A stretch of DNA of 64,000 bases from Neelides folsomi (taxonomy: Eukaryota > Arthropoda > Collembola > Neelipleona > Neelidae): NCBI GenBank assembly GCA_034687125.1, contig JAQGBZ010000008.1, forward strand, positions 124,001-188,000, given 5' to 3'. Both the position numbers and the translations under genes were made by a program. This document shows, piece by piece, positions 11,001 through 20,000 of this stretch. The notes under the pieces were generated by a model. The model saw only the letters and a program-made list of their open reading frames with translations. It was not told the DNA's origin and made no database searches. The stretch's first letter is position 1. The number at the start of each line of letters is the position of its first letter.

Positions 11001-14000
11001 TCGTTACGTCACTTATTCAAATTTTTGTCATCAATTAGAATCATTATTGTTTATGTTTTTAAGGAAAGCACTCTTATATTATAATATTAAATTGATCGTT
11101 CTATACAATATACATATGTAATCATATTTGCATAAATCATTTTTATCACATTTTGCTGCATTTATGTGTGCCAAGTTGTTGATGAGACAAATGGGTTCCG
11201 ATCCAGGCAGATCAATGGGAATTTAATTGGTCTGTATCAAATTTAATTAATGATCATTTTAAACATTCAGAGTGGGAGCGGAGGAAGCGATGGGTCTGGA
11301 CGCGGCAGTGGGTAAATGATTCGTTTATATATTTTAAATACATTTATTTAATCGTTTTTTATAAATATAGTAATAATATGACTTGGTTGTAATTGAATTT
11401 GCTTATCTTTAGACATCCAAGTGACAATCCATTTTACTCAACAATCGACAGTATGCCTGACATTCGACCCAGGCGGAAATCAATACCCTTAGTCTCTGAA
11501 TTGGTACGTTAAACATTGGCTTTCCACTAACTTTGACAAAGATTTTCCAGAGATAATTAATTAATGTTCGTCGTGAGAATTAACTTATTGTATTAAGTAT
11601 ATCAGTCTTGTTGAATATTATCTGATACTATATAAATTCTTAATATAAAATCAATACTAAAATGCTTCTCATTCCTTGTTGCTCCAACGCGCTGTAAAGG
11701 TTCTCAAGGTATATAAAAATTCACTTTCTTTACTCTTTATACGGATTTTCTCTTATCTGGGTTCTAAAGCATGGAAGGAACTCCAGAACCTCTAGACATT
11801 AAAAACTCCCTTGTGACATCTCTCGAAGCAGGAGAGTGTTCAACAATGAAAGTAGATTTTTCAATTAAGAGGAGAAATTGAGTTTCTCGCTCTCCTTTTT
11901 ACTCCTTTTTTTATGTTCCTATAAAAGATGGAATGCGGGTAAACCCCAAATATGAGAATTAAATCGCTCTTATCTCCCCTATACAATTTTCTCCGTGCTG
12001 CTCCAATTCTTCACCGCATGTTCAAATTCTTTAAATCCTTTTAAAACATACACGTACTGCAATTTTTATATAAAATTGTTCTTGTAAACTGATTGCCTTC
12101 ATTTATTAATATTTTAATTTATAATGGATATAGACAATGGCTGCGACGAAAAGACAAGCCGGACTGACCTCCGCCGTCCCTCGTGCTACGCTTAACGATG
12201 AAGAATTGGTAAGAGTTCATTAAATATTTCGTTCATGTTCTATTGAATTCGAAATATTCAAATTATCCTAAATATTAAACCAGTATCTTGTTAGCCATGA
12301 ACGAATTCTTTGGGTTTTATAATTATTAGTCAGTTTAACCGTTAAAGGATTATATAAGGGTAGTAAGGGTATCCTGTGTTTATTTAAAGCCAAGATAGAA
12401 AATCCATTCATTTATGTACATGTTATGTATCCTATTATTTATTATATAATATATAGTTTGTAGTATATTTTTTGAATTTCTTTGAATGTGGTTGTGCATT
12501 TCGGAAGGAACATGTAGTTATAAAATAATGAGATGTTTTTTGTGGAAGACTTCAATGGTGAATCTCTTTATTCAAATTGTTCTTATAAAGGATCTTTAAA
12601 GGGGGTTTCCTCCTTCTCAAAAGCCACTTCACGATTCTCTTATTCTTGTATTAACAATGAATCCGTCTAAAAGGCGAGGGACATATCCACAGTATAAAAG
12701 AATCCAATATTGATTTTCTTATTTAACAAATTTAGAAATATGTATAAGTTTAAAGAGCCCAATACCATATAAAATAATATGCGACACTCAACGTTGTCAT
12801 CAACACGTCTATAGCTATTTTCAACGCATGACTTCAAAAGTGGGGCGAAGATAATTAAAGAATAATATGTTGTATCTCATGTACATGTATGTATGAGATG
12901 TACCATAGACCATTATATTTTTTTACTTAAACTCGTCGTAATTGAAATTAGCCATGTGAGTTAAAATATAAATTTAAAAAATAAGTAAAATATGAATAAA
13001 TATAAAATAAAATGATAATGCCAATTGCTCTTCTAATTATTTCCAAATTTATTGATTAAAAACGATTTATAATAATTAGAAATTTTTTAATAAAATTAAT
13101 AAAATATCAAATAAAGTAATGGTAGATGTTAAGAGATGAATACTTTTAATTGGATTTGTATTTGCGATCGATATTTTAGAAAAATGTTTTTATATTCGAA
13201 TTCTGCTCAAGCTTTATTTAAAATGTAATTTATTATGTGAGGTAGCAGAGAAAATGTAATACTTCATATGTAATCACATTTTTCATTTTCCTATTTTGTA
13301 TAATAGGATGCGAAATAATATATTTAGCGGAAGTAAAGTTGAGCCCTTGAGGGATAAATGTATAATTTATCTTGAAAATATGACAGAAAATGCACGTATA
13401 CAAGAAGACGCTCCAAGCCCTTATTTACCCAATTTCGAGCACAACTCCGCACAACTTTGTTCTCTGGACGGCGACGTCTCCCACCTACTGCTACGAATGC
13501 GAAGGGCTCCTCTGGGGAATCGCACGCCAAGGAGTCCGCTGCACCGAATGTGGGGTCAAGTGCCACGAAAAGTGCAAAGATCTTCTCAACGCTGACTGCC
13601 TACAAAGTACGGGCGTTTTCTTGACATTTTTCTTTCTCTTGACATATTTCTAGTCCTTTCTCCTCTTCGCTCCATTGCCTCTATTACTCTTCTTTTGTGC
13701 TCGAATCGATAAATAAAATGGGATATTCTGAATATAGGAGCGGCCGAGAAGAGTTGTAAACACGGTGCTGATGACAAAGCCAGCAGTATTATCACAGCCA
13801 TGAAAGAAATTATGAAACAGAGGGAGAGACAAAATCCTGAAATTTTTGAGCTTATAAGGCAAGTTTTTAACTTTAATTACGTATCAAGATTCACATCAAC
13901 AATCTTTAATATTATATTATAACTTATACTATTAATAATTTTTTAAAAAAATGAAGCATCAAAAAGTTCAATATATTTGCAAGGGATTCGACGCCATGAT

Positions 14001-17000: not shown

Positions 17001-20000
17001 TCTCTTCTCAAATTCTTTTATAAGATATATAGCACCGGGATGAGCTTATTGATCCGCTACGAGCTTTCAATGTTAAAAATCCCCTCATCTTAACGTTAAA
17101 CCAAGCAAAATGGGAATCTAACCATTTTTTCAATCCTCAGTGATTTGTGCCCAAGGCCTAATAGCAAAAGACAAAAGCGGAACTTCGGATCCCTACGTCA
17201 CTGTCCAAGTAGGGAAAGTGAAGAAAAGGACGAGGACCATGCCGCAAGAGCTCAACCCTGTCTGGAACGAAAAATTTTACTTGTAAGATTTTATATTAAT
17301 TCTAACATTTTAATTAAAATCAACAGCTTTTAATAATATTGTATCTTTTAATATGCTGGAATCAAAGAACTTTTAATTAACAAAATGAAAATGAAAATTA
17401 ATAATAATATATTAAATATTCTAACGGTGACAAATTTAATTACAGCGAGTGCCATAATTCGTCCGACCGTATTAAAGTTCGTGTATGGGATGAGGATAAT
17501 GACCTCAAGTCAAAGTTAAGACAAAAGCTCACTCGGGAATCTGATGACTTCTTAGGACAAACAATCATTGAAGTACATGTCTTTAATGTTTTTAATTAAC
17601 TAACATCATTTCTTGTTCTCTCACTTGTTTCATCAGAGTGAGAAGTTAAATGTCTCAAGGGGCTCTGATTTCCTGAGTTATTGAGAGTCTAATGAAATGG
17701 ATTTAATTACTTTAAAGGTGCGAACGCTGTCGGGAGAAATGGATGTGTGGTACAATCTGGAGAAACGAACGGACAAGTCGGCCGTCTCAGGTGCCATTCG
17801 TCTCCACATTTCCGTCGAGATTAAGGGAGAGGAGAAGGTGAGAAATCCATTCATCTCCAGTTCGGGTCTTGACATGGAGAAATTAAATTATGCAATTAAT
17901 GATTCCAGCTTAAGCAATGAGTCTTGAGGGAACTTACGCAATTTACATCTTTACGCATTTCCCCGCAATTCAATTGACTTTTCAATTTCCTTCCTCGGTT
18001 GTAAAGAACCTCTTATGGGTGATTTCTTGACTTTCCTTATGAGAATCTATTTTTCATAGGCGGATTCATTCATTCAAATTAGTAATTATGAGATTAGAAA
18101 ACTTTGCTTTTACTTTTATCGTATTACAAATGGGGAATAAAGGGAAAGTGGAAGGAAGGATTTGGCCCGTTGCGTAAAAGAGGGCAGATGTAAGGGATTT
18201 GAGTTTCTAAACCCCAAATTTCCATTCCAGGTGGCCCCATACCACGTCCAATACACATGCCTTCACGAGAACTTGTTCCATTACCTTTGCGAGCTCACCA
18301 TCGGTATGATGAAATTACCAAATGCGAAGGGAGACGATGGTTGGAAGATCTACTTTGAAGACACGGGGCAAGAGATCGTGGACGAGTTTGCAATGCGTTA
18401 TGGAATTGAGTCCATTTATCAAGCGATGACGTAAGACATTCTAAATTTTAGCCAGAACAACCTCGTTTCCAAGTTGATTCCCTTATTGTTGGAATGATTA
18501 TGAATAATAAGTGACTCTCATATAATTTTATGCCATATTAAATCCTAGTGATAATTTAAAAGATACACATATTGCTTACTATTCCATTACTTGTCATATA
18601 ACTAGATAAAATGTCTCTTATCTAAAACTCATATTCCTGTTCTTTTTATGCATCATACAAAGTTTACTTGGATAGAAAAACCTTATCTTTATATTGTTGA
18701 AACGAAGTTTAATGGGAAAATGAGTAAAGTCTCAAAATGTAGGGAACCTTGATGTGTATATAGCTTTTCTTAACCTACGTGACAATTTGACATCTCCTCC
18801 TTTGAATCCCAATGAAGAGGCGTAATGAAAGAGGCCCAATGTGGGTCTTTGAATTCAACGCATTTTCTTGACCCGTGTCGCACCAGGGAGTTCCTTATAA
18901 ATTAAAATCCGTACTGTGCAAGTTAAAAATGTGTCTGAGGTTTTCTTTTTCTCTCTTTTCACAGCCATTTTCATTGTTTGTCGACGAAGTATTTATGTGC
19001 GAGCGTGCCTGCAGTGATGAGTACCCTCTTGGCGAACATCAATGCTTATTACGCACATACGACGGCCTCGTCGGCGGTCTCAGCCTCGGACCGTTTTGCA
19101 GCGTCCAATTTCGGGGTAAATCCTTTGGCAGATGAGGAATGAGGATTCCTTTCATTTGAGGAAAATCGCCGTTTTTCAACTCCTTTTCCCTTTACAGAAA
19201 GAGAAGTTTGTGAAACTTTTGGACCAGTTGCACAATTCCCTCCGTATCGACCTCTCTATGTACCGGAACAACTTCCCGGCGTCGAGCAATGAGAAATTGA
19301 TGGACCTTAAGTCAACTGTCGATCTCCTCACTTCAATTACATTCTTCCGCATGAAGGTTCCTCTTCTTTTGAAAGCCTCCATGCAACTTTAATACACTAA
19401 TAAGTCTCAAACGTTCCTGTTCACTTAAATTCCTTTTAATACGAACAAACTTTCCGGTCCGCATTAAGGGAACTTTGGGAAGTTGTTAAATTTCATAGCT
19501 CTAATGACTTTACATCTTCCAAACTGAAGGATGAATTGGGGATATTTAAACTCTGCTCGTATATTGTACATAATACATCGAAGATATACGACTATTTACG
19601 TAATGGAGTCTGAGCCTTAAGCTCTAGTCAGAGAGAAATGGAAATGAGAGCGAAGAGGTATGATGAGAATTCATTAGCTTTCAAACTTGGCTTTCCTGAT
19701 TTCCAACCAAAGTAGAACGAGGGAAAGCACCAAAGCACACTACAGAATTCATCAATACTTCTTCAGTCTTTTTGTAAATTCTCTTTCACCCCACTTATTC
19801 CATGTTCTTTTTTTAATATTAGTTTTACGTATTTATGATACCTACATTACTTTATTAAAATATCTTAATACCAAAGTATAATTATAAAAACCATTTATAG
19901 GTAGGTGTATTATTTTAATATTTTGAAAAAAAAATGGGAAATTTATATTCAGTTCATATTTTATTAATAATGAGATGAAAGCTTTTTATAATATTGATGC

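Follow-up and report, generated by a model that had tools for sequence, protein, structure and literature searches.

A probable pair of mutually exclusive exons in the C1-C2B linker of unc-13 in the collembolan Neelides folsomi

In Neelides folsomi (GenBank assembly GCA_034687125.1), a window of 64,000 nucleotides (nt) on contig JAQGBZ010000008.1 (positions 124,001 to 188,000 of the forward strand) carries an unc-13 gene on the + strand; all positions given below are those of this window, i.e., of the whole stretch that was analysed. Two adjoining exons of this gene, 7a and 7b, probably form a mutually exclusive pair from which two alternative UNC-13 isoforms would be made. We suggest that a single unc-13 exon was duplicated in tandem, giving 7a and 7b, and that mutually exclusive splicing of the two copies, both of which would be expressed, yields UNC-13 proteins differing in the second half of the linker between the lipid-sensing C1 and C2B domains and at the very start of C2B. 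The two exons are:

Exon 7a, 15016..15122, + strand: canonical form of the segment (linker and start of C2B); 24 of its 35 residues match Munc13-1.
Exon 7b, 15894..16000, + strand: divergent acidic form with a net charge of -5; 13 of its 35 residues match Munc13-1.

Both exons measure 107 nt, are flanked by AG and GT and have identical entry and exit phases (remainders 1 and 1). Their 35-residue translations are identical at 14 positions, 5 of them in the first 24 residues and 9 in the last 11. At the nucleotide level the copies share 55 of 105 positions, and the duplication would therefore be an old one. Similar partners were sought by scanning the introns beside 21 exons (the scan left aside exons 5, 24 and 27 and the 5' exons) for segments of equal length and equal phase, bounded by AG and by GT or GC, with an open frame and no gaps in the alignment. 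The 7a/7b pair scored 75 and the best candidate elsewhere scored -1; with equal lengths and ungapped alignment, no such partner was found for any of the 19 further unc-13 exons in the scan. Chance resemblance between 7a and 7b can be rejected, as 2000 dinucleotide shuffles of positions 15123-17140 gave a maximum score of 8, against 75 for the pair, and 928 of them contained no candidate at all. Searches of the genome (75,104,828 bases in 840 contigs) with each of the two 35-residue peptides returned only the peptide itself and its partner, the latter with E-values of 0.020 and 0.027. Another unc-13 copy that could have been the source of 7b was not found in the genome search, which scores best candidates only; a 106-residue piece of the MUN region likewise matched, among the best candidates scored, two exons of this window only.

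The reading frame distinguishes between the possible combinations of the two exons, which involve the following features:

C1-domain exon (exon 5 or part of it), 13444..13606, + strand: Pfam C1_1 match; donor AAA/gtacgg.
Exon 6, 13738..13858, + strand: common first half of the C1-C2B linker; its last two bases begin an Arg codon.
TAG met when 7a is joined to 7b, 15926..15928, + strand: from the joined translation.
Exon 8, 17141..17282, + strand: common next part of C2B.
Exon 9, 17446..17572, + strand: C2B; holds the TAA at 17455-17457.

With 7a alone or 7b alone, no stop interrupts the frame between the C1 exon and the end of exon 11. Joining of 7a to 7b leads to the TAG in 7b, and skipping of both copies leads to the TAA in exon 9. 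Mutual exclusion would be enforced at least by this frameshift and by the decay of mRNAs in which the two exons are joined or skipped. An earlier note on this DNA had described two 107-nt exons with matching phases whose 35-residue translations represent the same segment, with 14 identities concentrated in the first strand of C2B, and had concluded from the two stops that a productive mRNA contains just one of the two. The coordinates, the translations, the position of the identities and both stops were all reproduced here. The mutually exclusive architecture that it proposed is well supported at the sequence level, by the frames, the homology and the shuffles. As sequence, the exon pair is real; that it functions as a pair of mutually exclusive exons is likely.

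Judged by its C1, C2, MUN and C-terminal C2 domains and by an ungapped alignment with Munc13-1, the gene is UNC-13. The joined protein matches the Pfam families PF00130 (C1), PF00168 (C2) and PF06292 (MUN), and from the end of C1 through C2B it aligns without gaps with Munc13-1 (PDB 7t7c and 5ue8). Counted from H567 along this alignment, in which K603 falls in place, the exon 7 segment corresponds to Munc13-1 residues ~660-694. Since the Pfam C2 model takes in just the last 4-5 residues of exon 7, the exon encodes mainly linker; the remainder of its conserved end we take, following the earlier note, to belong to the first C2B strand. The first 24 residues include 14 that are identical to Munc13-1 in 7a and 5 in 7b, and the last 11 include 10 and 8, respectively. 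The region aligns with Munc13-1 at 359 bits when it contains 7a and at 337 bits when it contains 7b. On this likeness, 7a is the canonical copy. The net charge of the segment (K+R minus D+E) is 0 in 7a, -5 in 7b and +3 in Munc13-1. Insect UNC-13 records presumably carry a 12-residue motif like that of 7b, in which case the pair would be old and 7b widespread; we regard this as an unconfirmed lead and not as evidence.

The GC donor of exon 6 and the composition of the intron between 7a and 7b suggest where the choice between the two exons could be controlled. Two features are of interest:

GC 5' splice site (AAG/GCAAGT) of exon 6, which must join 7a or 7b, 13859..13860, + strand: the sole GC among 22 donors.
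CU-rich tracts, candidate regulator-binding site, 15479..15640, + strand: 6 of the 8 CTCTCT starts of the 7a-7b intron.

A GT lies four bases past the GC donor (13863-13864) and, in our own reading, its use would place both 7a and 7b in stop-bearing frames; exon 6 must therefore end at the GC donor. Papers are cited here by PubMed Central (PMC) number. GC donors are described as enriched in alternatively spliced genes and as poorly conserved between nematodes, and in let-2 of Caenorhabditis elegans a GC donor is required for regulated exon choice (PMC2490688). Ranked from the weakest of 22 donors (exon 24 left out), that of 7b is 18th and that of 7a 21st. The motif CTCTCT occurs 8 times in the 7a-7b intron versus 0.3 expected from the other introns (a background that includes exon 24); these are 8 of the 35 CTCTCT sites of the window, and several of them overlap in one CU run. 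It was the only one to stand out among seven motifs counted in three introns, and some excess is expected from such repeated looking. The excess of CTCTCT is therefore a hint only, and PTB-type proteins are no more than candidate binders of these tracts. We propose that the choice between 7a and 7b may be controlled at the exon 6 GC donor and, perhaps, also by PTB-type, CU-binding proteins acting in the intron that separates the two copies.

Several observations weigh against the proposed explanation. In a codon test in which each exon was held out of training, 7b scored -0.03, the lowest of 21 exons (the next scored 0.15 and 7a 0.30). Of 1365 open intron frames with the length of 7b, 309 did as well as this exon or better, compared with 12 for 7a. 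In an earlier, less fair version of the test, with the other exons in the training set, the rank of 7b was the same and the fraction of open intron frames was 14%. Among 22 acceptors, counted from the weakest, that of 7b comes only 7th and that of 7a 10th. YUCUYY, a wider PTB-like motif, is more frequent in two 500-nt bins elsewhere in the window than in the 7a-7b intron. The spacer between 7a and 7b is 771 nt long, while introns of 59-92 nt occur in the gene model, which makes steric exclusion unlikely. Competing RNA structures were considered as a guide of the 7a/7b choice and rejected, no intron pairing being clearly above shuffles: with 30 shuffles for each of three intron pairs, ungapped helices at least as strong arose in 19, 24 and 13 of them, and the whole-intron duplex energies of the three pairs, a crude measure for introns of such length, were matched by 20, 7 and 2 of 25 shuffles. 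The third of these pairings, between the intron before 7a and the intron after 7b, is a faint hint at most. Finally, the C-terminal region of the fly Unc13 isoforms is called identical in a review (PMC8762327).

The held-out codon score has slightly lowered our confidence in the mutually exclusive pair, which we still consider probable, and has slightly raised the standing of the main alternative, namely that 7b, though an old duplicate of the exon, is now a relic that is no longer spliced into mRNA. A score within the range of open intron frames is what such a relic might give, and the likeness of 7b to Munc13-1 is far below that of 7a. A neutral copy that had diverged to 55 of 105 identical nucleotides would be expected, however, to have lost at least one among frame, phase, splice sites and the GTS-WS-KIAIT motif, and all of these are intact; frames of exon 7 length are open in 972 of 7693 cases in seven introns of the gene. 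Moreover, third codon positions are favoured among the differences between 7a and 7b: they account for 9 of the 14 differences in codons 21-35 (P 0.017) and, over the whole exon, for 23 of 50 (P 0.04), each by a simple binomial. We regard a relic as improbable.

Less probable still is an internal promoter with a shorter transcript in which coding begins in 7b, whether as the sole role of this exon or as a second one. The exon does contain an in-frame ATG (15907-15909) in the context ACCATGG, which is a favourable one, and translation from it would give a C1-less UNC-13 that starts in the linker. UNC-13 forms with different N-termini are indeed known from the literature (PMC11991699, PMC8762327). 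For a first exon, however, an acceptor with a pyrimidine tract would be needless, and so would the agreement of 7b with 7a in length and phase and in the Phe that precedes the ATG. We give equally little credence to the idea that the pair is mainly a productivity switch, in which regulated joint inclusion or skipping sends the mRNA to decay and the protein difference is minor, for although both wrong combinations produce premature stops with exon junctions downstream, the C2B-proximal motif kept by 7b and its difference of five net charges would be needless in a pure poison exon.

If 7a and 7b are indeed alternative parts of UNC-13, published work on the C1-C2B module suggests what the exchange could do. 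In the crystal structure of Munc13-1 the C1-C2B linker is made of four helices, with extensive contacts among H1, the helices, MUN, C1 and C2B (PMC5344669). In simulations of the perpendicular, Ca2+-free orientation the linker lies against the membrane; charge reversal on the polybasic face at K603 or R769 impairs priming, and K720E raises release probability (PMC8648301). In worm UNC-13 without linkers, the mutual inhibition of evoked release by C1 and C2B is lost and spontaneous release is still partly reduced; several linkers were removed together in this construct, and the C1-C2B linker was not isolated (PMC11991699). Because of these linker contacts, polybasic-face mutants and the linker-less construct, the acidic 7b linker should weaken the membrane contact or the packing that keeps C1 and C2B mutually inhibited. 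Such weakening would in turn shift release probability and the response to diacylglycerol (DAG) and Ca2+. That the swap could tune release probability or the DAG/Ca2+ response, as the earlier note supposed, is plausible. The direction proposed here, in which the acidic 7b loosens C1-C2B inhibition and so shifts release probability and the DAG/Ca2+ response, is tentative, and we would sooner expect it to need revision than to stand as worded. With little confidence, we lean towards a higher release probability with 7b rather than a lower priming. A bolder version, which we find doubtful, is that of a conserved splice switch regulated by neuron type, in which 7b would free C1-C2B from an inhibited, polybasic membrane-bound state. 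Through the two exons a single gene would then set release probability and DAG/Ca2+ potentiation at two different levels, separately from any choice among its N-terminal isoforms.

Studies of the mutual restraint of C1 and C2B in transmitter release have relied on artificial mutations and on deletion of linkers. A natural pair of linkers of equal length, five net charges apart, would be a ready-made experiment on the C1-C2B hinge. If the proposal is true, it adds a control point of synaptic strength in that part of UNC-13 which the fly review treats as identical between isoforms.

Once the exons are joined, a single open frame runs from the C1 exon to exon 23. All tabulated exons have AG acceptors (the 5' end of the C1 exon excluded), and the donors are GT with one exception. 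The C-terminal C2 domain (C2C) was detected in the protein joined from 35101-38903 (PF00168, E 3.6e-16). Between exon 23 and the exon preceding C2C, the start of which is a guess, lies a segment of ~5.5 kilobases (29585-35086) that is long for this gene; a scan of it for copies of exon 23 length yielded no pair like 7a/7b. A search for known structured RNA in 13000-18000 gave none at gathering score. The C1 exon is preceded by a stop-to-stop open frame of 2012 amino acids (2137-8175), which has no Pfam match at E 0.001 and is probably a large N-terminal unc-13 exon.

The earlier note knew of no described exon pair at the C1-C2B linker, and our searches of open-licence PubMed Central agree with it: among the matches listed, and in the text available, there is no earlier report of an unc-13 pair of the 7a/7b type, which may already be annotated in databases. 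The gene is not named in the main text of three papers on mutually exclusive exons. In fly clock neurons unc-13 is among the differentially spliced genes, the event not being specified in the text seen (PMC6025963), and in the available part of another paper it appears only in a reference, and no such exon pair is treated (PMC12084633).

Some mutually exclusive exons are chosen through competing RNA structures, of which Dscam is reportedly an example. The exons 7a and 7b are likewise tandem exons that would exclude each other, but differ from this class (PMC6071210) in showing no intron pairing clearly above shuffles. In the let-2 gene, as at exon 6, an alternative choice of exons is accompanied by a GC 5' splice site; in let-2 this donor has been shown to be needed, whereas here it is merely present, on the common exon (PMC2490688). 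Fly Unc13A/B and worm UNC-13L/S show, like the pair proposed here, how one gene can give UNC-13 proteins with different release properties; they differ in their N-termini (PMC8762327), whereas the change between 7a and 7b lies inside the C1-C2B module. With tandem mutually exclusive exons as delimited by the criteria of Pillmann et al. (2011; PMC3228551), 7a and 7b have in common their adjoining position, equal length, splice-site pattern, phase and homology; the pair, whose exclusive use in transcripts is predicted, differs in sitting in the C1-C2B linker of unc-13. The pair 7a/7b would be a new instance of tandem mutually exclusive exons, in a gene and at a place where such a pair would matter.

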